From assembly GCA_001767455.1 (NCBI GenBank), contig MELC01000028.1, positions 2,694-53,710 of the forward strand: 51,017 bases of DNA, written 5' to 3'. Shown here in pieces: positions 3,825-22,960 of this stretch. This DNA is from Acidobacteria bacterium RIFCSPLOWO2_12_FULL_66_21 (GTDB lineage Bacteria; Acidobacteriota; Vicinamibacteria; Vicinamibacterales; 2-12-FULL-66-21). Under the pieces are notes generated by a model. That model searched no databases and had not been told where the DNA came from. It saw nothing but the letters and a program-made list of their open reading frames with translations. The position numbers and the translations under genes were made by a program. Within the stretch, counting starts at the first letter, position 1. Each line of letters starts with the position of its first letter.

Positions 3825-5279
3825 ATGTTCAACGATCTCGACGGCTTCATCGCGGCGCTGGACAGGGAACGCGAGCTCGCGCGCGTGGCGGAACAGGTCA
3901 GCCCGGACCTGGAGATCTGCGCCGTGGCCGATCGCGTCTCCAAGTCCCCCGGCGGCGGGCCGGGGCTGTTGTTCGAGCGACCGGGCGGCTTCGACATCCC
4001 GGTGGCGGTCAACCTGTTTGGCTCCATGAAGCGCATCTGCATGGCGCTCGGTGTGCGCACCCTCGACGATCTGGCCCGGGAGATCGAGACGCTGACGACC
4101 CCGAAGGTCCCCAGCGGGTTGTTCGATGCGCTGAAGATGCTGCCGATAGTCAACCGGCTGACGGATCTGATGCCGAAGACCGTGAAGGACGCCCCCTGCC
4201 AGGAAGTCGTCAACCGCGAGGGCACGCTCGACGACTTGCCGATCCTCAAGTGCTGGCCGGAGGACGGCGGACGTTACATCACGCTGCCGCTGGTGTTCAC
4301 GAAGGATCCGGAGACGGGAGCCCGCAACATCGGCACGTACCGGATGCAGGTGTTCGACGGCCGCACGACGGGGATGCACTGGCAGCGCCACAAGGGCGGC
4401 GCGCAGCATCACCGCGTCGCCGAGCGCATGGGGAAGCGCCTGCCGGTCGCGGTGGCGCTCGGGCCGGATCCCGCGACGGCGTATTCGGCGACGGCGCCGA
4501 TGCCCGAGGGGCTCGACGAGCTGATGCTGGCCGGCTTCCTGCGGCGCGAACGGGTCGAGCTCGTCAAGTGCGTGACGGTGGACCTCGAGGTGCCCGCCAA
4601 CTCCCAGATCGTTCTCGAGGGGTACGTCGATCCCGGCGAGCGGCGGCGCGAGGGGCCGTTCGGCGATCACACGGGTTTCTATTCGCATCCCGACGACTAC
4701 CCGGTGTTCCATCTCACCTGCATCACGCAGCGGAAGCGCCCGACGTATCTCACGACCGTGGTCGGCGTGCCGCCGATGGAGGATTACTACCTCGGCAAGG
4801 CCAGCGAGCGGATCTTCCTCCCCCTGATCAGGAAGACCCTGCCGGAAATCGTCGACATGCACTTTCCGGCCGCCGGCATCTTCCACAACATCGTCATCAT
4901 CTCGATCGACAAGCGGTATCCCGGCCACGCGCGCAAGATCATGAACGCGTGCTGGGGTCTGGGCCAGCTCATGTTCTCGAAGACGGTGATCGTCGTCGAC
5001 AAGGACGTCGACGTGCAGAACGAGGCCGAGGTCGCATGGATCGTCGGGACGCATTACGATCCGGAGCGGGACATCCAGTTCACGCGCGGCCCGGTCGACG
5101 ATCTCGAGGACGCCAGCGACCTGCCCGCGTTCGGCAGCAAGATGGGCATTGACGCGACGCGGAAGTGGCCCTCGGAAGGTTTCACGCGGACGTGGCCGAC
5201 CCGGATCGCCACCACCGACGCCGCCAGGGCGAAGGCCGACGCCGTATGGAAGACGATCAGCGAGGGGTGGAAAGCGTGA
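3825..5279 (+). CDS. UbiD-family decarboxylase, probably the menaquinone (futalosine) pathway enzyme
   Basis: This encodes 484 residues, the usual UbiD length. The prenyl-FMN-binding segment NIGTYRMQVFD is near residue 168. The catalytic Glu-Arg-Glu region lies in the stretch from GYVDPGERRREGPFGDHTGF near residue 275. UbiD enzymes decarboxylate aromatic acids using prenylated FMN made by UbiX. A UbiX gene (10713) and an MqnP-like prenyltransferase (9753) lie in the same cluster. This one is therefore likely the decarboxylase that converts the prenylated dihydroxynaphthoate intermediate to demethylmenaquinol. It starts one base after the preceding stop, and its own stop overlaps the next GTG (GTGA), so it sits in a tight operon. 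The exact substrate is inferred from context. Confidence 0.9.
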   Translation: MFNDLDGFIAALDRERELARVAEQVSPDLEICAVADRVSKSPGGGPGLLFERPGGFDIPVAVNLFGSMKRICMALGVRTLDDLAREIETLTTPKVPSGLFDALKMLPIVNRLTDLMPKTVKDAPCQEVVNREGTLDDLPILKCWPEDGGRYITLPLVFTKDPETGARNIGTYRMQVFDGRTTGMHWQRHKGGAQHHRVAERMGKRLPVAVALGPDPATAYSATAPMPEGLDELMLAGFLRRERVELVKCVTVDLEVPANSQIVLEGYVDPGERRREGPFGDHTGFYSHPDDYPVFHLTCITQRKRPTYLTTVVGVPPMEDYYLGKASERIFLPLIRKTLPEIVDMHFPAAGIFHNIVIISIDKRYPGHARKIMNACWGLGQLMFSKTVIVVDKDVDVQNEAEVAWIVGTHYDPERDIQFTRGPVDDLEDASDLPAFGSKMGIDATRKWPSEGFTRTWPTRIATTDAARAKADAVWKTISEGWKA

Positions 5280-6202
5280 GCGCGCTCGACGGGCTCGCCG
5301 AACGTGTGACGGCGGGCGCGACCATCACCGAAGCGGATGCCCGCCTGATGCTGGCGAGCCACGACCTGATCGCCATCGGCGTGATGGGTGATGCCGTCCG
5401 TCGCCGCCTGCACGGCGCGAGAACGACGTTCGTGCGCGTGTTCGAGATTCACGTGAACGCGCCCCCCGCGGGACGGCCCCTGCACGTGTCGGCCGGCGAG
5501 TTCCGAATCATCGGACGCCCCGCATCGTTCGAGGCGGCGGTGAAAGCGGTCGGCGCGGCCTCGGCGATCGCGTCGGGCGTGCCCGTGACCGGGTTTTCAC
5601 TGATCGATCTCCAGGGAGTCGCGTCCGAGTCGGGCCAACGGCTCGACGCGGTGTGCTCGGCTCTCCGATCCGCGGGTCTCGCGGCTGTGGCCGAGGTCCC
5701 CGTCGACCTCGCCGGTGACGCGGCGGCCGACGCGGTGAACGCCGCGCGGTCCGCCGGGCTCGCCGTCACACGCCTGACCGTCCACGCGCTCCCGGACGCC
5801 CGCGCGATCGAGCCCGCCGTCAGAGCTCGGGATCTCCAGCTCGCCACCGGCGGCTTCAGGGTCTTCGCGCCGCTGCCGCGCACGATGTCCGTGACGGAAC
5901 CGTCGAGCGGGTACGACGACGTGAAGCAGGTGGCGATGGCGAGACTGCTGGCGGCGAACATCGAATCGATCCAGGTGGACTGGGCGCTCTACGGTCCGAA
6001 GCTGGCGCAGGTGGCGTTGACGACCGGCGCCGACGACGTCGACAACGTCGCGGCGCAGGAGTCCGGCGCGCTCGGCACGCGGCGGAGCAGCCTCGAGGAG
6101 ATACGGGGCAACATCCGCGCGGCGGGGCTCGAGCCGATCGAGCGAAACGCGGTATTCGAGTGCGGCTGGAATGGAGCCGGCGGCGGAGCGCCGGCGGAAT
6201 GA
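5276..6202 (+). CDS. MqnE-like protein lacking the radical-SAM cluster cysteines
   Basis: This encodes 308 residues from a GTG start that overlaps the UbiD stop. The N-terminus (ADARLMLASHDLIAIG, then VRRRLHGART) matches the start of aminofutalosine synthase MqnE. The C-terminus also matches the MqnE/MqnC C-terminal part (SGYDDVKQVAMARLLAAN, then YGPKLAQVALTTGADDVDN, then GLEPIERNAVF). The middle still looks like an alpha/beta barrel, but the CxxxCxxC motif that binds the [4Fe-4S] cluster is absent. Only two cysteines remain in the protein, one mid-chain and one near the end. The chain is about 60-80 residues shorter than a typical MqnE. The frame is intact and coupled to its neighbours, so it looks like a maintained pseudoenzyme and not a decaying gene. 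It cannot perform radical-SAM chemistry as known. It could be a scaffold or partner for the real MqnE. Confidence 0.75.
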   Translation: MSALDGLAERVTAGATITEADARLMLASHDLIAIGVMGDAVRRRLHGARTTFVRVFEIHVNAPPAGRPLHVSAGEFRIIGRPASFEAAVKAVGAASAIASGVPVTGFSLIDLQGVASESGQRLDAVCSALRSAGLAAVAEVPVDLAGDAAADAVNAARSAGLAVTRLTVHALPDARAIEPAVRARDLQLATGGFRVFAPLPRTMSVTEPSSGYDDVKQVAMARLLAANIESIQVDWALYGPKLAQVALTTGADDVDNVAAQESGALGTRRSSLEEIRGNIRAAGLEPIERNAVFECGWNGAGGGAPAE

Positions 6203-6248: not shown

Positions 6249-7055
6249 ATGAAGCCAGTTCGTCTCGGCGCGGTCGCGTACCTGAATGCGCGTCCGCTGG
6301 TCTACGGCCTCGAGATACGGACCGATCTCTTTGCGCTGCGCTTCGACGTGCCATCGAAGTGCGCGGCGCTCCTGCACGAAGGGTCGATCGACCTTGGCAT
6401 GATCCCGTCGATCGAGTACTTGCGCGGCCAGCCGTATCGCATCGTCCCCGACTGCGCCATCATCTCCGAAGGCGCGGTGGCGTCGGTCGCCCTGTTCAGC
6501 AAGACGCCGGTCGAGGCCGTCATCTCGATTGCCGCCGATACGAGCTCGCGCACGTCGACCGGACTGTTGCGCGTGTTGTGCTGCGAACGCTTCGGCATCG
6601 ATCCGCGCTTCGAGCCGATGCACCCCGATCCCGTCGTCATGCTGCGGCACTGCGACGCGGCGCTGCTTATTGGGGACCCCGCGCTGTTCCTCGATTACGA
6701 GGGGATGGGCCTCGTGAAGACCGACCTGGGCGAGCAGTGGACGGCCATGACAGGACTGCCGTTCGTGTGGGCTTTCTGGGCCGGACGGCCGGAGGCGCTC
6801 TCGACCGGGCACGTTGCCGCGCTGCAGGAGGCCAGGGACGGCGGGGTCGCGGCATCGGATGAGGTGGCCGACGCGTACTGCGGACCGCAACATGCCGCGC
6901 TGGGCCGCGCGTACCTGAGAGAGAATATCCGCTACCGTCTCGGCGAGCGCGAAGAGGCCGGGCTGCGGCGGTTCTACGAGCTCGCCGCCAGGCACGGCGT
7001 CGTCGATCGCGCGCAGGCGCCGGCGTTCTACCCACGCCCGAAACATGTCTACTGA
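6249..7055 (+). CDS. mqnA: Chorismate dehydratase MqnA
   Basis: This encodes 268 residues. The family hallmark VRLGAVAYLNARPLVYGL is at the N-terminus, followed by DLGMIPSIEYL and SRTSTGLLRVL. MqnA has a periplasmic-binding-protein-like fold. It dehydrates chorismate to 3-enolpyruvyl-benzoate, the entry step of the futalosine route to menaquinone. The ATG at 6249 is set by the conserved N-terminus. The end overlaps mqnC by 11 bases, so the two are probably translated together. The start is preceded by a dispersed repeat instead of an obvious Shine-Dalgarno. Confidence 0.93.
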   Translation: MKPVRLGAVAYLNARPLVYGLEIRTDLFALRFDVPSKCAALLHEGSIDLGMIPSIEYLRGQPYRIVPDCAIISEGAVASVALFSKTPVEAVISIAADTSSRTSTGLLRVLCCERFGIDPRFEPMHPDPVVMLRHCDAALLIGDPALFLDYEGMGLVKTDLGEQWTAMTGLPFVWAFWAGRPEALSTGHVAALQEARDGGVAASDEVADAYCGPQHAALGRAYLRENIRYRLGEREEAGLRRFYELAARHGVVDRAQAPAFYPRPKHVY

Positions 7056-8259
7056 GGCCCTGGCGGACCACGTGCGGAACGGCGGGCGGCTCGATGCCGC
7101 CGGCGCGCTGGAGCTGTACCTCGACGCGCCCACGCCGCTCCTCGGCCGCCTCGCCGGCGAGATCCGCCGCCGCAAGCACCCCGACGGCGTCGTCACTTAC
7201 ATCATCGACCGCAACGTCAACTACACGAACATCTGCGTTGCGCGCTGCAATTTCTGCGCGTTCTACCGGCCGGTCGGATCCGCCGAAGGGTACGTCCTCG
7301 GGTTCGACGACATCTTCCGGAAGATCGACGAGACGATGGCGCTCGGCGGCGGCCAGTTGCTGCTGCAGGGCGGGCACAATCCCGATCTGCCGCTCGAGTG
7401 GTACGAGGACCTGTTCCGATCGGTGAAGCAGCGCTATCCCGCCTTTCGCCTGCACGCGCTGTCGCCGCCCGAGGTCGTGAACCTCTGCCGCCTCTCCAGG
7501 CTGCCGGTTCCCGAGATCATCGACCGGCTCGTTGATGCCGGGCTGGACAGCATTCCCGGCGGCGGCGCCGAAATTCTCGTCGACCGCGTGCGCAAGCTGC
7601 TCAACTGCTACAGCAAAGCGACGGCGGACGAATGGCTCGATGTGATGCGCCACGCGCACCGCGCGGGTCTGCGCACGACGGCCACGATGATGTACGGGAC
7701 GGTGGAGACGCCCGAGGAGCGGCTCGAGCACATGTTCCGGCTGCGCGAGCTGCAGGACGAGACCGGCGGATTCACCGCGTTCATCGCGTGGAGCTACCAG
7801 CCGGAGCACACGGAGCTTGGCGGGAGCGAGGCCACCGGCGTCGAGTACCTGCGCACGCTCGCCACCGCGCGCCTCGTCCTCGACAACTTCGACAACCTGC
7901 AGGCGTCGTGGGTCACCCAGGGGGGCAAGGTGGGGCAGTTGAGCCTCGCTTACGGCGCGAACGACATGGGCAGCGTCATGATCGAGGAGAACGTCGTCCG
8001 AGCCGCCGGCGCCAGCTACTGCATGGACGAGATGGAGATCGTGCGCAACATCGAGAACGCCGGGTTCACGGCGCGGCGGCGCAACATGCACTACGAGGCG
8101 CTCGGTGAGCCGATCTTCCGCGGGCGGCAGGTGCCCCGCACGCTGGAGCTCGCGGTCGCGCGCGGAGAGGACGATGCCACGCGTCCGCCGGAGATCGGGC
8201 GGTACGCGGCGAGAAGCGCCGCAGAGAAGAAGGCGCGACAGGCCGGCGCCACGGAGTAA
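7045..8259 (+). CDS. mqnC: Cyclic dehypoxanthinyl futalosine synthase MqnC
   Basis: This encodes 404 residues. It is a radical-SAM enzyme with the complete CxxxCxxC motif at Cys64, Cys68 and Cys71 (NYTNICVARCNFCAFYR). It also has the GGGAEI segment and the conserved ELQDETGGFTAFIAWSYQPE. MqnC cyclises dehypoxanthine futalosine to the spiro compound that MqnD later cleaves. The NYTN motif before the first cysteine and the AFYR after the last separate MqnC from MqnE. The C-terminal 30 residues are extra, charged and probably disordered. The stop codon overlaps the next start (TAATG). Confidence 0.94.
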   Translation: MSTEALADHVRNGGRLDAAGALELYLDAPTPLLGRLAGEIRRRKHPDGVVTYIIDRNVNYTNICVARCNFCAFYRPVGSAEGYVLGFDDIFRKIDETMALGGGQLLLQGGHNPDLPLEWYEDLFRSVKQRYPAFRLHALSPPEVVNLCRLSRLPVPEIIDRLVDAGLDSIPGGGAEILVDRVRKLLNCYSKATADEWLDVMRHAHRAGLRTTATMMYGTVETPEERLEHMFRLRELQDETGGFTAFIAWSYQPEHTELGGSEATGVEYLRTLATARLVLDNFDNLQASWVTQGGKVGQLSLAYGANDMGSVMIEENVVRAAGASYCMDEMEIVRNIENAGFTARRRNMHYEALGEPIFRGRQVPRTLELAVARGEDDATRPPEIGRYAARSAAEKKARQAGATE

Positions 8260-9455
8260 TGGGACGGCTCTTTCGTGCCCGATGGGTGCTGCCGATGACC
8301 GGCCCGCCGCTCAGGAACGGGTGGGTCGCCTGCGATCACGGCGTCGTCGTTGGCGCCGGCGAGACGCCGGCGGATACCGCGGGCTTCGAGGTCATCGATG
8401 CGGGCGAGGCGGCCATCCTGCCGGGCCTGGTGAACGCCCACACGCATCTCGAGCTGTCGTGGATGCGCAGCCAGGTGCCTCCGGACGCGTCCATGCCCGC
8501 ATGGGCCGCGAGGCTGATGGCGCTCAGGCGATCGGTCAGCGCCGAACCTCCCGAACCCATCGTCGAGGCCGTTCATGAGCTGCGCGCGGCGGGCACGTCG
8601 CTCGTCGGCGACGTGACCAACACGCTTGCCGCCTACGAGCCGCTTCTCGACAGCGATCTCAGCGGAGCCATATTCCGCGAGCTGCTGGGATTCAGCGGCG
8701 CGCAGCCGGAGCGCGCCGTCGCGGACGCCGTTGCGCAACTGGATGCGCTGACGAAGGTCGCGTGGCTCCGCCCGTCGATCGTGCCGCACGCGCCGTACTC
8801 CGTCTCGCCATCGCTCTTCCGCGCGATCACCGCGGTGGCCGGCGGCCGCCCGGTCAGCGTGCATCTCGGCGAATCGCAGGACGAATTGCGTCTTCTCCGC
8901 GATGGAACGGGTGCCTGGCGCGAGCTGCTCGGGCGGCTTGGCGTCTGGGACGACGCATGGCAGCCGCCCGGGTGCGGTCCCGTCGAGTACCTCGAACGGT
9001 TGGGGCTCGTCGGCGGGCACCTGCTGGCGGTGCACGCGACTCATCTGTCAGCGCAGGAAATCGCACGACTGGCGGCGGCGAACGCCACGATCGTGACGTG
9101 TCCGCGCTCGAACCGGTGGACCGGCGCCGGGACGCCGCCGATCGAGCGGTTCTATGCCTCAGGCGCGCGGGTCGCCATCGGTACGGACAGCCTCGCGAGC
9201 GTGGAGAATCTGAACCTCTTCGCGGAGATGGCCGAGGTTCACCGCCTCGCGCCGGGCGTCCCAGCGCGAACGCTTCTCGAGAGCGCGACCATCCAGGGCT
9301 CCGTCGCGCTCGGTTTCGACGGCGAGTTCGGGACGATCGCGCCTGGAAAGCGGGCGGACCTCATTGCGGTCAGCGTTCCGGCGGACACTGCCGATGTGGA
9401 AGAATATCTCGTAAGTGGAATCGAGCCCGATCGAATTCAGTGGCTCGAGACGTAG
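8259..9455 (+). CDS. Amidohydrolase, probable aminodeoxyfutalosine deaminase
   Basis: This encodes 398 residues of the metal-dependent amidohydrolase superfamily (chlorohydrolase/TrzN-like branch). Metal ligands are visible: NAHTHLE (His61, His63), VHLGES, and Asp310 in GTDS. In futalosine clusters this position is typically filled by MqnX, which deaminates 6-amino-6-deoxyfutalosine to futalosine. That assignment fits the neighbouring mqnC, but related deaminases of methylthioadenosine or guanine share the same motifs. The start overlaps the mqnC stop, indicating one transcript. Confidence 0.82.
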   Translation: MGRLFRARWVLPMTGPPLRNGWVACDHGVVVGAGETPADTAGFEVIDAGEAAILPGLVNAHTHLELSWMRSQVPPDASMPAWAARLMALRRSVSAEPPEPIVEAVHELRAAGTSLVGDVTNTLAAYEPLLDSDLSGAIFRELLGFSGAQPERAVADAVAQLDALTKVAWLRPSIVPHAPYSVSPSLFRAITAVAGGRPVSVHLGESQDELRLLRDGTGAWRELLGRLGVWDDAWQPPGCGPVEYLERLGLVGGHLLAVHATHLSAQEIARLAAANATIVTCPRSNRWTGAGTPPIERFYASGARVAIGTDSLASVENLNLFAEMAEVHRLAPGVPARTLLESATIQGSVALGFDGEFGTIAPGKRADLIAVSVPADTADVEEYLVSGIEPDRIQWLET

Positions 9456-9465
9456 ACTCGCAGTT

Positions 9466-9745
9466 CGCGGTTCGCGGTTCACGGCTCGGCGCTGGGCGCT
9501 GGGCGCTCGGCGCTGGGCGCTGGGCGCTGGGCGCTGGAAGCTGGGCGCTGGAAGCTGGAACCTGGAAGCTGGAACCTGGAAGCTGGAACCTGGAAGCTGG
9601 AACCTGGAAGCTGGAACCTGGAAGCTGGAACCTGGAAGCTGGAACCTGGAAGCTGGAACCTGGAAGCTGGAACCTGGAAGCTGGAAACTGGAAACTGGAA
9701 GCTGGAAACTGGAAACTGGAAGCTGATACTGATAGCTGATCGCTG
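9466..9745 (+). repeat. Heptamer array (CTGGAAG/CTGGAAC) before mqnP
   Basis: About 280 bases fill the gap between the deaminase and the prenyltransferase. The array starts with GTTCGCG and GGCGCTG-type heptamers, passes into a long run alternating CTGGAAG and CTGGAAC (14-bp period), and ends in GCTGATA-type units. Because 7 is not a multiple of 3, all three frames read through with a WKLEAG-like peptide. These readings are artefacts. No gene is present. Confidence 0.9.
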
Positions 9746-9752
9746 ATAACTA

Positions 9753-10622
9753 ATGCGAAGGATTCTGACCTATGCCTCGTTCGTGCGATTCAGCCACTCG
9801 GTGTTCGCGCTGCCGTTCGCGTTGACCGGCGCGCTGCTGGCGCTGAACCGGCTTGGTGAATGGAATGGCCGGGTCGTCGGCTGGCGGATCTGGTGGATCG
9901 TGGCCGCGATGGTGGCCGCGCGCAGCGCCGCCATGGGATTCAACCGCCTGGCCGACGCGTCGCACGACGCGCTCAATCCGCGGACCGCGGGGCGCGAGCT
10001 GCCGCGCGGCGTCATGAGCCGGCGCGAGGCGCAGGCGTTCATTGGCGTGGCAGCCGCCGTGTTCGTGTTCGCGGCGTGGAAGCTCAACCCCCTCTGCCTG
10101 GCGCTCTCGCCAATCGCGCTCCTGATTGTCTTCTGGTATTCCCTGGCCAAACGGTTCACGAGCTTCACGCAGTTGTTTCTGGGTCTGGCGATGGCCGTTG
10201 CCCCGGTGGGCGGCTGGCTCGCGGCGGGCGGCCGCGGCGGGTGGGAACCGTGGCTCCTGGGACTGGCGATCGGGATGTGGGTCGGGGGATTCGACGTGCT
10301 GTATGCGTGTCAGGACCTGGATTTCGACCGGGTCCATGGATTGCGATCGATTCCCGTGCGCTACGGCGTCGCCCGCTCATTGCTGATCTCGCGGGGGATG
10401 CACATCATCGCGGTCGTGTGTCTTGCCGCGCTCGCCCCGGCCGCGGGACTCGGTCCCGTGTATGTCGCGGGGGTTGCCGGCGTCGCCGCGCTCCTCGTGT
10501 ACGAGCAGTCGCTCGTCAGCGAAGCCGATCTCTCGCAGGTGAAGCGAGCCTTCGACCTGAATGGGTACGTCGGCTTGTTGTATCTGGCCACGACCACGCT
10601 GTCAGTGTGGATCGCCAGGTAA
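9753..10622 (+). CDS. UbiA-family prenyltransferase, probable MqnP
   Basis: This encodes 289 residues, very hydrophobic, with about eight membrane segments. The two aspartate-rich motifs of the UbiA family are present. The first is NRLADASHDALNPRT, with Asn64, Asp68 and Asp72. The second is DLDFDRVHGLRSIP near residue 187. The family transfers a polyprenyl chain to an aromatic acceptor in the inner membrane. The next gene is UbiX and the cluster also has UbiD, MqnA and MqnC. This is therefore most likely the MqnP prenyltransferase of the futalosine pathway and not UbiA or MenA. ATG 9753 directly follows a heptamer array and has no clear Shine-Dalgarno. Confidence 0.88.
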   Translation: MRRILTYASFVRFSHSVFALPFALTGALLALNRLGEWNGRVVGWRIWWIVAAMVAARSAAMGFNRLADASHDALNPRTAGRELPRGVMSRREAQAFIGVAAAVFVFAAWKLNPLCLALSPIALLIVFWYSLAKRFTSFTQLFLGLAMAVAPVGGWLAAGGRGGWEPWLLGLAIGMWVGGFDVLYACQDLDFDRVHGLRSIPVRYGVARSLLISRGMHIIAVVCLAALAPAAGLGPVYVAGVAGVAALLVYEQSLVSEADLSQVKRAFDLNGYVGLLYLATTTLSVWIAR

Positions 10623-10637
10623 ACGTGGAACGTTTCA

Positions 10638-10712
10638 AAGCTGATAGCTGATAGCTGATAGCTGATAGCTGATAGCTGATAGCTGGAAACTGGTAACTGG
10701 TAACTGGTAACT
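10638..10712 (+). repeat. Heptamer array (GCTGATA / ACTGGTA) before ubiX
   Basis: About six GCTGATA units are followed by ACTGGAA and three ACTGGTA units. The array runs straight into the GTG start of ubiX, leaving no room for an independent ribosome-binding site. Confidence 0.9.
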
Positions 10713-11318
10713 GTGGATAAACGCACCGTAGCAGTCGCGATAACCGGCGCGAGCGGCGCGCTGTACGCCGTGCGGACGCTCGCGGCGCTGCTGGAGCGCG
10801 AGTGTCACGTCGAGTTGATCGTCACGGAGTACGGGCGGCGGCTGCTGCACGATGAGCTGGGGGATGGCGCCACCGTCGACAAGCTCGCCGACTATCTGGC
10901 GGCCCGATACGGCGACGGCGTGAAGAAGGGATCGTTCACGCTGTACAGCAACCGCGATCTGGGAGCCAAGCTCGCGAGCGGCAGCCAGGGATGCGACGCG
11001 ATGGCCATCGTTCCGTGCTCGATGAAGACGCTGGCCGCGGTGGCGCACGGGCTGTCACGGACCCTGGTGGAGCGTGCGGCGGACGTCATGTTGAAGGAGC
11101 GGCGCACGCTCGTCATCGTGCCGCGTGAAACCCCGATGAGCCTTCCGCAGCTCAGGAACATGGTGCTCTGCGCCGAGGCCGGCGCGATGATCCTTCCAGC
11201 GATGCCGGCCTTCTATCAGATGCCGCGGACGCTCGACGACCTCGCCGATTTCATGGCGGGCAAGATCCTCGGCGCGCTCGGATTCACGCACAGGCTGTAT
11301 CCGTCCTGGGAGGGATAA
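10713..11318 (+). CDS. ubiX: Flavin prenyltransferase UbiX
   Basis: This encodes 201 residues. The N-terminal [16 protein letters not shown] is the UbiX flavin-binding signature. It is followed by [16 protein letters not shown] and the [15 protein letters not shown] segment that lines the prenyl-phosphate pocket. UbiX attaches dimethylallyl phosphate to FMN, giving the prenyl-FMN that UbiD needs. The UbiD homologue sits at 3825 in the same cluster, so the pair form a functional unit. The start is GTG, placed at the end of a heptamer array. Confidence 0.95.
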
Positions 11319-11334: not shown

Positions 11335-11460
11335 CAACTTCCAACTCCCAACTTCCAACCCCCAAACCGTTGGAAGTTGCGATTCGGGATTTGCGGTTGG
11401 GCGTTGGGAGTTGGGCGTTGGGCGTTGGGCGTTGGGCGTTGGGAGTTGGGCGTTGGGAGT
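11335..11460 (+). repeat. Inverted heptamer arrays before menG
   Basis: A left arm of CTTCCAA/CTCCCAA-type heptamers is followed by a core of about 35 bases and a right arm of GTTGGGC/GTTGGGA heptamers. The arms are complementary and could form a long imperfect hairpin. The right arm runs into the coding region of the methyltransferase. Confidence 0.85.
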
Positions 11461-12172
11461 TGACAAGCACCCCACCCGTATAGCGGGAATGTTCGACGCG
11501 ATCGCGCCGCGATACGACCTGCTCAACCACCTGCTCAGCGCGGGATTGGATCGACGCTGGCGCGTGCGTGCGGTCGAGGCGCTGGCGCCCGGCGGGCACG
11601 CGCGCGTGCTTGATCTCTGCACCGGCACGGGCGACCTGGCCATCGCCACCATCACCCGATCGCCGGGCGCGACGGTCGTCGGCGTGGACTTCGCGGCGGA
11701 GATGCTGCGCCTGGGGCGCGCGAAGGTGCGCGCTCTGGACCTCCTGCAGCGCATCCACCTGGTGCGCGGCGACGCCGCGATGATTCCGCTGCCGAATCGG
11801 TCCTGCGACGCCGCGACGATTGCCTTTGGGATTCGCAATGTCGCCGATCCCGGCGCCGCGCTCGCCGAGCTCGCCAGGGTCCTCAGACCGGGCGGCCGCC
11901 TGGCGATCCTCGAGTTCGGCCAGCCGCGCATCCCGGGGATCAGGACGCTGTACGGCTGGTATTTCCGGTTCCTGCTGCCGCTGGTCGGGCGGCTCATTTC
12001 CCGCCACGACAGCGCGTACTCCTATTTGCCGGCGTCAGTCGGCAACTTCCCACCTCCGCCGGAGTTCTGCCGCCTTCTCGCTGTCGCGGGATTTTCACAG
12101 GTCCAGGCCGTCCCCCTCACCTTCGGCATCGTCTATCTATTCGTAGGCGTGCGGACACCCGAACAGAAGTAG
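11453..12172 (+). CDS. menG: Demethylmenaquinone methyltransferase, MenG/UbiE family
   Basis: This encodes about 239 residues. The conserved [17 protein letters not shown] opening is followed by the SAM-binding motif [12 protein letters not shown]. The family C-terminus, with [12 protein letters not shown], completes it. The enzyme C-methylates demethylmenaquinol, the last step of menaquinone synthesis, which fits its place after ubiX. The start is uncertain. UbiE proteins usually have 10-20 residues before MFD, which favours TTG at 11453, inside the last heptamers. ATG 11489 (MFDAI) is the alternative, and the open frame extends back to 11411 through repeat DNA. Confidence 0.9.
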
Positions 12173-22822: not shown

Positions 22823-22960
22823 TTTCCAGTCTCCAGCTTCCAGCTTCCAGCTTCCAGCTGAGAACGCCTCGGAGCGGTGCCAGCCACGCCGGGAGCTGGC
22901 AACTGGAAGCTGGAAGCTGGAAGCTGGAGACTGGAGACTGGAAGCTGGAGACTGGAAGCT
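22823..22960 (+). repeat. Inverted heptamer arrays before etfB
   Basis: A left arm of CTTCCAG units and a right arm of CTGGAAG/CTGGAGA units flank a core of about 40 bases (GAGAACGCCTCGGAGCGG and onwards). It is the cleanest example of the inverted arrangement and ends four bases before the etfB ATG. Confidence 0.9.

Follow-up and report, generated by a model that had tools for sequence, protein, structure and literature searches.

PSE, as we call the protein encoded at positions 5276–6202 of a 51,017-nucleotide stretch of DNA from Acidobacteria bacterium RIFCSPLOWO2_12_FULL_66_21 (the window, always meant at its full length), is related to the aminofutalosine synthase MqnE by ancestry and predicted fold and lacks the radical S-adenosylmethionine (radical-SAM) cysteine motif. 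The protein is found across a whole bacterial order, its sequences point to purifying selection, and it probably derives, by stripping in place, from the MqnE that the operon had ancestrally. We favour, with a probability of about 0.4, the reading that this stripped enzyme has been kept as a non-radical, ligand-binding partner for the pathway steps that follow MqnE.

Results

PSE lacks the cysteine motif of MqnE and keeps its predicted fold

The following features of the window concern PSE itself.

5276–6202, forward strand: PSE, MqnE-derived protein without the cysteine motif; 308 amino acids, GTG start, open frame (profile matches, predicted fold)
5276–5279, forward strand: overlap of four bases (GTGA) between the start of PSE and the stop (TGA) of the UbiD gene (sequence)
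5420–5452, forward strand: predicted barrel strand 1 of PSE, residues 49–59, with conserved T51, F52 and R54 (conservation and model)
5453–5497, forward strand: short linker of PSE, residues 60–74, substituting the CxxxCxxC loop and helix alpha-1 of MqnE (model and alignment)
5861–6160, forward strand: conserved region of PSE, residues 196–295, with FAPLPR, TGYDDV, IQVDW, GPKLAQVAL, GADD.D.V and G.RR; contains the CofH_C match (alignment, Pfam)

Among the family models, the NCBIfam MqnE model TIGR03700 scored best, matching PSE in two stretches (86.1 bits, best over residues 173–295) and staying below its equivalog cut-off of 434.55; the MqnC model TIGR03699 gave 68.6 bits (cut-off 428.1) and the CofH model TIGR03551 45.3 bits (cut-off 374.1). 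The only Pfam match in PSE was CofH_C (PF19288) at residues 204–295, which with 40.4 bits exceeded its gathering cut-off of 27. Both TIGR03700 and CofH_C matched all 30 aligned PSE sequences at E ≤ 0.001. None of these 30 carried even the looser radical-SAM pattern C.{2,5}C..C, no cysteine was conserved among them, and CxxxCxxC was absent from all 80 named PSE loci. These results bear out the first-pass annotation, made from the letters of the window, which had described MqnE-like ends with CxxxCxxC gone. The known radical mechanism of MqnE requires cluster ligands that PSE lacks. In an alignment with the canonical enzymes, from which 2 of the 30 MqnE loci and 46 of the 69 MqnC loci were left out, the MqnE stretches GG.hP, PGGGAE and YGH.E were also lost; PSE keeps 28 and has lost 90 of the 118 columns conserved at ≥90% in 45 MqnE sequences, and 34 conserved positions are particular to it. 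Across the 30 PSE sequences 33 columns are invariant, and E75, R77, W236, D254, D256, R269 and R270 are invariant both there and in a set of 35 genomes. Mean conservation was highest in residues 196–262 (0.78), reached 0.70 in each of residues 30–60 and 263–295, and was lowest in residues 1–29 (0.31).

An AlphaFold2 model of PSE, built from 30 sequences, had a mean predicted local distance difference test score (pLDDT) of 94.0 and a predicted template modelling score of 0.91. When the PDB was searched with this model using Foldseek, the top four hits were chains of Pedobacter heparinus MqnE, and in VIA-align the model matched MqnE with Z 28.4 over 294 residues (root-mean-square deviation 3.0), the next family being biotin synthase with Z 20.4. 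The structural comparison that had been proposed with the first annotation thus led to MqnE itself and not to an unrelated barrel family. The model has strands at residues 49–59, 75–79, 104–108, 135–142, 166–169, 196–201, 231–235 and 254–259, which we read as the full predicted barrel set; between strands 1 and 2 a short linker stands instead of the cluster loop and helix alpha-1, and further loops are trimmed. The earlier description of a shortened barrel therefore applies to the cluster loop, helix alpha-1 and other loops, but not to the eight barrel strands, which are still modelled. Judged from profile matches and model, PSE and MqnE share a common ancestry and fold.

PSE is retained across the order

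In a sample of 60 genomes from the window's order, a group of soil and aquatic bacteria, PSE was present in 52, the window's own genome included in the sample. Five of the eight genomes without it (G022, G033, G038, G043 and G052) gave weak matches to the MqnE model (best E 2.9e-9) or none, two (G008 and G048) have contigs that stop inside mqnA, and in one that is 74% complete (G034) mqnE alone was found. Four of the former five belong to family f12, and the pattern suggests that the futalosine pathway has been lost in these five. Among 297 Acidobacteriota genomes drawn evenly, 230 matched the PSE/MqnE-type profile, and matches of PSE grade (E < 1e-79) were found in 28, all from the same order, for which 30 genomes are listed in the draw; the next best match had an E of 1e-30. 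One genome of this draw (G328) has mqnE and an mqnD-like gene, with mqnC and PSE not detected.

Named genomes, when scanned, yielded 129 relatives, from which 80 loci were kept, their titles being mostly Acidobacteria, Vicinamibacteria or Vicinamibacterales; four of them (L048, L051, L087 and L088) bear titles such as Bifidobacterium breve, Alphaproteobacteria or Acidimicrobiia and seem to be metagenome bins under a wrong label. The next recognised gene after PSE was mqnA at 77 of the 80 loci, mqnC at two and the contig end at one, and the gap from the PSE stop to the mqnA match had a median of −1 base over the 77 loci. The frame was open to the end of the match at 77 of 80 loci, and at the other three it stopped 18–51 bases early, in the variable C-terminal tail. 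Ratios of non-synonymous to synonymous substitution rates (dN/dS) lay between 0.11 and 0.35 in 34 closely related PSE pairs and between 0.05 and 0.28 in the mqnA pairs alongside. PSE is thus an order-wide family, which is more than chance, and its substitution pattern indicates that it is held by purifying selection, in line with the first-pass annotation, which had taken the gene for a maintained and selected one and proposed a survey of relatives: the cysteine-less form is present in them and adjoins mqnA. With its catalytic motif lost, its frame intact and purifying selection acting on it, PSE is a putative pseudoenzyme.

A second, canonical MqnE is encoded elsewhere

A search of the rest of the window's genome for a canonical mqnE, likewise proposed at the outset, found it on another contig (G000:C73) with 483.5 bits, above the cut-off. 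About 8 kb from it lies a second PF02621 gene, probably mqnD. MqnE scored above the cut-off in 51 of the 60 genomes of the order and in 48 of the 52 that bear PSE; of the four exceptions, G023 matches in part (330 bits), while G003 (57% complete), G005 (87%) and G030 (98%, 500 contigs) gave no match apart from MqnC and PSE. Five genomes of family f9 (G019, G031, G041, G050 and G058) have a further match to the MqnE model of 287–305 bits in frames of 818–1009 amino acids, possibly an F420-type CofGH fusion.

Outside the order, the canonical gene order mqnE-mqnA-mqnC was found at L213 and L214, the two genomes sampled from a different order within the class, and at L232, from a further family; PSE occupies the operon place that canonical mqnE has at these three loci. 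At the remaining canonical MqnE loci outside the order the gene lies beside UbiA, UbiX, UbiD or mqnC genes, or the stretch contains no reference gene; the pattern used for this neighbour count missed the MqnE of L221 and L226. A PSE profile gave mean scores of 118.7 bits on the MqnE of other Acidobacteriota (n = 16), 124.3 on the MqnE of L213 and L214, 99.6 on the order's own MqnE (n = 29) and 75.7 on the order's MqnC (n = 23). In likelihood trees of a sample of PSE, MqnE and MqnC sequences, holding PSE together with the MqnE of L213 and L214 scored best of all, exceeding the likelihood of the free search by 2.75 (approximately unbiased test, p-AU 0.58), and adding three other MqnE to this group gave 2.10 above it (p-AU 0.56); one further placement of PSE used a quick tree. 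That canonical mqnE fills the same operon place in two genomes from a different order of the class makes it probable that PSE descends from the operon's original MqnE and lost its motifs where it stands. We hold this identity and origin to be very likely, by our own judgement and not by computation.

PSE covaries weakly with MqnC and the deaminase

Relative evolutionary rates were obtained by fixing the topology and fitting branch lengths for each protein in 35 genomes, 6 of 41 having been left out. The rate of PSE correlated with that of MqnC (0.57) and of the probable aminofutalosine deaminase (0.51), and less with those of MqnA (0.23) and MqnE (0.10, p 0.24); the bootstrap difference between MqnC and MqnE was 0.35 (0.01–0.66). 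In a second set of 42 named loci (38 of the 80 left out) the correlations were 0.33 with MqnC, 0.30 with the deaminase, 0.15 with UbiA and 0.00–0.08 with LpxA, LpxI, Gfo and MqnA. Tree lengths over the 35 genomes were 17.8 for PSE, 7.6 for MqnC, 5.4 for MqnE and 19.0 for the deaminase. Going by these rates, PSE appears to covary, weakly, with MqnC and the deaminase rather than with MqnE, and this weak evidence speaks against the suggestion, made in the first-pass annotation, of a partner of the true MqnE in particular; the other roles named there, scaffold, regulator or enzyme of changed chemistry, are candidates.

Futalosine hydrolase in genomes with and without PSE

Futalosine hydrolysis, the MqnB step, falls between the deaminase and MqnC. 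The futalosine hydrolase model had no match in the whole genome of the window or in any of the 12 genomes of its family, and the two PNP_UDP_1 proteins of the window's genome score as purine nucleoside phosphorylase and methylthioadenosine phosphorylase; since there is no mqnB match and both of these proteins are otherwise assigned, PSE suggested itself as a possible hydrolase. A search of the 297 phylum genomes found mqnB above the cut-off in 24, and in neither of two same-class genomes without PSE; because mqnB is this scarce in the phylum, these two genomes included, the gap exists also without PSE. We rejected PSE as a substitute for MqnB in strict complementarity, as the two are present together (mqnB above the cut-off) in 11 of the 28 PSE-bearing genomes of the phylum draw; in the order sample they coexist in 10 of 52. 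Residue 54 of PSE is arginine in all 35 readable genomes that lack mqnB and glutamine in 6 of 14 that bear it, four genomes with partial mqnB-like matches having been excluded; this amounts to two changes on the tree, and the position was the strongest among 73 tested. The median relative rate of PSE was 1.10 with mqnB and 0.97 without (p 0.28), which is no clear difference.

A cysteine-less MqnC in another family of the phylum

In family f23 we examined the 30 best-scoring genomes and found a cysteine-less MqnC in 12 (loci L146–L149, L198–L207, L210, L211 and L300 are of this kind) and an intact one in 18 (L208, L209 and L301–L316). A second MqnC-like protein was present in all 12 cysteine-less genomes (609–861 bits) and in none of the 18 intact ones, two of the 12 having prompted this test; the same search in the 18 intact genomes matched the intact MqnC itself in 12 (34–37% identity) and nothing at the threshold in six. 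In two examples of the second protein we read its cysteine motif; in 2 of the 12 genomes its match is interrupted by a stop. With 314 bits it stays under the cut-off of the MqnC model, so that its activity is uncertain. The cysteine-less MqnC adjoins a presumed glycosyltransferase gene, by our own reading without a family search, and in the sister genomes L208 and L209 an intact MqnC, above the MqnC cut-off in L208, stands beside the same presumed gene. In a tree of f23 MqnC that holds 23 of the 30 sequences, the nine cysteine-less sequences that come from one genus group as a single clade, and that of G188 lies apart on a long branch. A structure model of the cysteine-less MqnC, made from four sequences, was poor (pLDDT 63).

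Genes around PSE in the window

The first-pass annotation had described an intact frame, start/stop coupled with the UbiD gene and followed by mqnA. This gene order was confirmed: the frame at 5276–6202 is open, the overlap is four bases, and mqnA begins at 6249.

3825–5279, forward strand: UbiD-family menaquinone biosynthesis decarboxylase (TIGR03701, 606.4 bits, above cut-off)
6249–7055, forward strand: mqnA (PF02621 match above cut-off)
7045–8259, forward strand: mqnC, canonical radical SAM (TIGR03699, 479.7 bits, above cut-off)
8259–9455, forward strand: amidohydrolase, probable aminofutalosine deaminase (NF006269, 145.9 bits, below the cut-off of 320)
9753–10622, forward strand: UbiA-like prenyltransferase (TIGR01475 above cut-off; MqnP models below theirs)
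10713–11318, forward strand: UbiX family flavin prenyltransferase (above cut-off)
11411–12172, forward strand: UbiE/MenG family methyltransferase, start codon uncertain (above cut-off)

Among the recognised genes, the one directly before PSE is Gfo at 47 of the 80 named loci and ubiD at 24. At most of L036–L115, LpxA-like, LpxI-like and Gfo/Idh oxidoreductase genes lie upstream of the menaquinone genes, with LpxI and Gfo adjacent at 64 of 80 loci. Tandem repeats of 7 and 14 bases (CTGGAAGCTGGAAC and relatives) occur between menaquinone-cluster genes and also in other parts of the window, at 9484–9725, 10639–10713, 11396–11462 and 22894–22960. Searched against Rfam at gathering thresholds, the window gave zero matches.

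Discussion

We propose the following course of events. A second, canonical MqnE, encoded elsewhere, would first have taken over aminofutalosine synthesis; from the operonic copy the iron-sulfur loop, helix alpha-1 and further conserved motifs would then have disappeared, and what remained, a TIM-barrel protein with no cysteine motif, would have been retained order-wide. PSE may act without radical chemistry and bind a ligand, for which the conserved charged residues on or beside the modelled barrel strands and the C-terminal cap, which it keeps, would be suited. It may work with the deaminase and MqnC by holding or passing on the nucleoside intermediate; alternatively, by analogy with prozyme paralogues, it may activate the deaminase or MqnC. 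Here we infer the order of events, the ligand, the partner and the absence of catalysis.

Several observations weigh against this reading of PSE or leave it less firmly based. As to origin, canonical mqnE lies beside mqnA at only 3 of the 20 loci fetched outside the order, and in the likelihood tree PSE, with a very long stem, falls between MqnE and MqnC. Holding PSE with the order's own MqnE was 0.14 above the free search (p-AU 0.51) and holding it with the order's MqnC 15.8 below (p-AU 0.20, not rejected), so that the trees leave alternative origins unrejected. As to function, the conserved residues of PSE would fit a new enzyme equally well, and D144 and D235, invariant in the 30 PSE sequences, vary in the 35 genomes across which the seven residues named above do not. 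As to the partner, MqnC also covaries with the deaminase (0.38) and with MqnE (0.36) in the 35 genomes, the bootstrap difference between deaminase and MqnE is 0.29 with an interval that includes zero (−0.05 to 0.65), and the set of 42 loci shares genomes with the first set. Within the 42 loci, LpxA with Gfo reaches 0.41 and Gfo with MqnC 0.31; because such pairs without an evident link also reach about 0.3, covariation near this value is weak as evidence.

Instead of a partner, PSE could be a new non-radical enzyme acting on a related nucleoside, most attractively in futalosine hydrolysis. This would account for the missing futalosine hydrolase in the window's genome, whose PNP_UDP_1 proteins score as other phosphorylases, and in all 12 genomes of its family, and it would suit the invariant acidic and arginine residues, the weak covariation with the enzymes that flank the hydrolase step and the arginine at residue 54 wherever mqnB is lacking. 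However, PSE and mqnB coexist in genomes of both samples, the scarcity of mqnB extends to genomes without PSE, the change at residue 54 comes down to two events at the best of the positions tested, and the presence of mqnB goes with no clear rise in the rate of PSE; we regard this alternative as unlikely. On a wider version, a radical-SAM enzyme that had been replaced in its pathway would have lost what served it to bind the iron-sulfur cluster and SAM and turned into another enzyme of that pathway, one without radical chemistry and possibly the unfound futalosine hydrolase; it would then be one of at least two cases in the phylum (MqnE here, MqnC elsewhere) of a displaced radical-SAM protein that persists after losing its cysteine motif. 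This version seems to us quite unlikely.

The operon place and gene overlap of PSE, its weak covariation with two neighbours and the parallel cysteine-less MqnC kept in another family would also fit a purely structural scaffold or subunit that binds the operon enzymes together and has no ligand of its own. Many of its invariant residues, however, are charged and lie on or beside the modelled barrel strands, and the cysteine-less MqnC of f23 has no recognised mqn gene next to it, its neighbour being the presumed glycosyltransferase; a pure scaffold is thus, in our estimate, also unlikely. A heterodimer specifically with canonical MqnE, which PSE would activate or stabilise, has in its favour that MqnE is the closest homologue and fold of PSE, and partnerships of dead paralogues are described for other enzymes in passages of published work; yet the rates of PSE and MqnE hardly covary and canonical mqnE lies outside the operon, and we consider such a pair distinctly unlikely. 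Finally, the lost catalytic motifs and a rate faster than those of MqnC and MqnE might suggest a functionless, decaying relic kept by its operon location alone, but this is highly improbable given the order-wide retention, the low dN/dS, the 33 invariant columns, a tree no longer than that of the deaminase and a frame that runs through the whole match without a stop at nearly all loci.

In kind, PSE would be a pseudoenzyme of a known family, and it is the in-place replacement and the MqnC parallel that are surprising. A displaced enzyme is usually expected to be deleted; here it apparently lost its motifs where it stood and was retained throughout an order. The MqnC counterpart elsewhere in the phylum repeats the pattern, 12 against 18 without exception among 30 genomes. 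Such retention implies a non-radical role that outlives catalysis. PSE provides a defined protein for asking whether the enzymes of the futalosine pathway form complexes, and its case raises the question of what performs the futalosine hydrolase step in genomes without a recognised mqnB. We found no report of a cysteine-less MqnE or MqnC in the literature covered, most subscription journals lying outside its scope, and the passages available from PMC3914697, PMC13386864, PMC8498797, PMC10211241 and PMC10754289 contain none.

Among known systems, MqnE (TIGR03700; PDB 6xi9 and 6xig) is like PSE in its overall fold, N-terminal helices and C-terminal cap, and in its operon place at L213, L214 and L232; unlike MqnE, PSE is without CxxxCxxC, helix alpha-1, GG.hP, PGGGAE and YGH.E. 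The cyclic dehypoxanthinyl futalosine synthase MqnC has a homologous barrel and C-terminal region, but PSE scores lower on it than on MqnE and has no cysteine motif, and a canonical mqnC lies two genes downstream of PSE. CofH, a subunit of the F420-cofactor synthase, belongs to the same radical-SAM subfamily and shares the CofH_C region, whereas PSE has no cysteine motif. Dead paralogues that activate a partner enzyme are described in passages of PMC5201418, PMC3663545, PMC6221367 and PMC12727527. Like the prozymes of trypanosome AdoMetDC and DHS and the plant TSB-like proteins, as treated in such passages (PMC5201418, PMC3663545, PMC12727527), PSE is a putatively dead paralogue kept beside a live enzyme; unlike them, they being of other enzyme families, PSE is of bacterial radical-SAM ancestry, and the partner role that we propose for it would be a counterpart by analogy.

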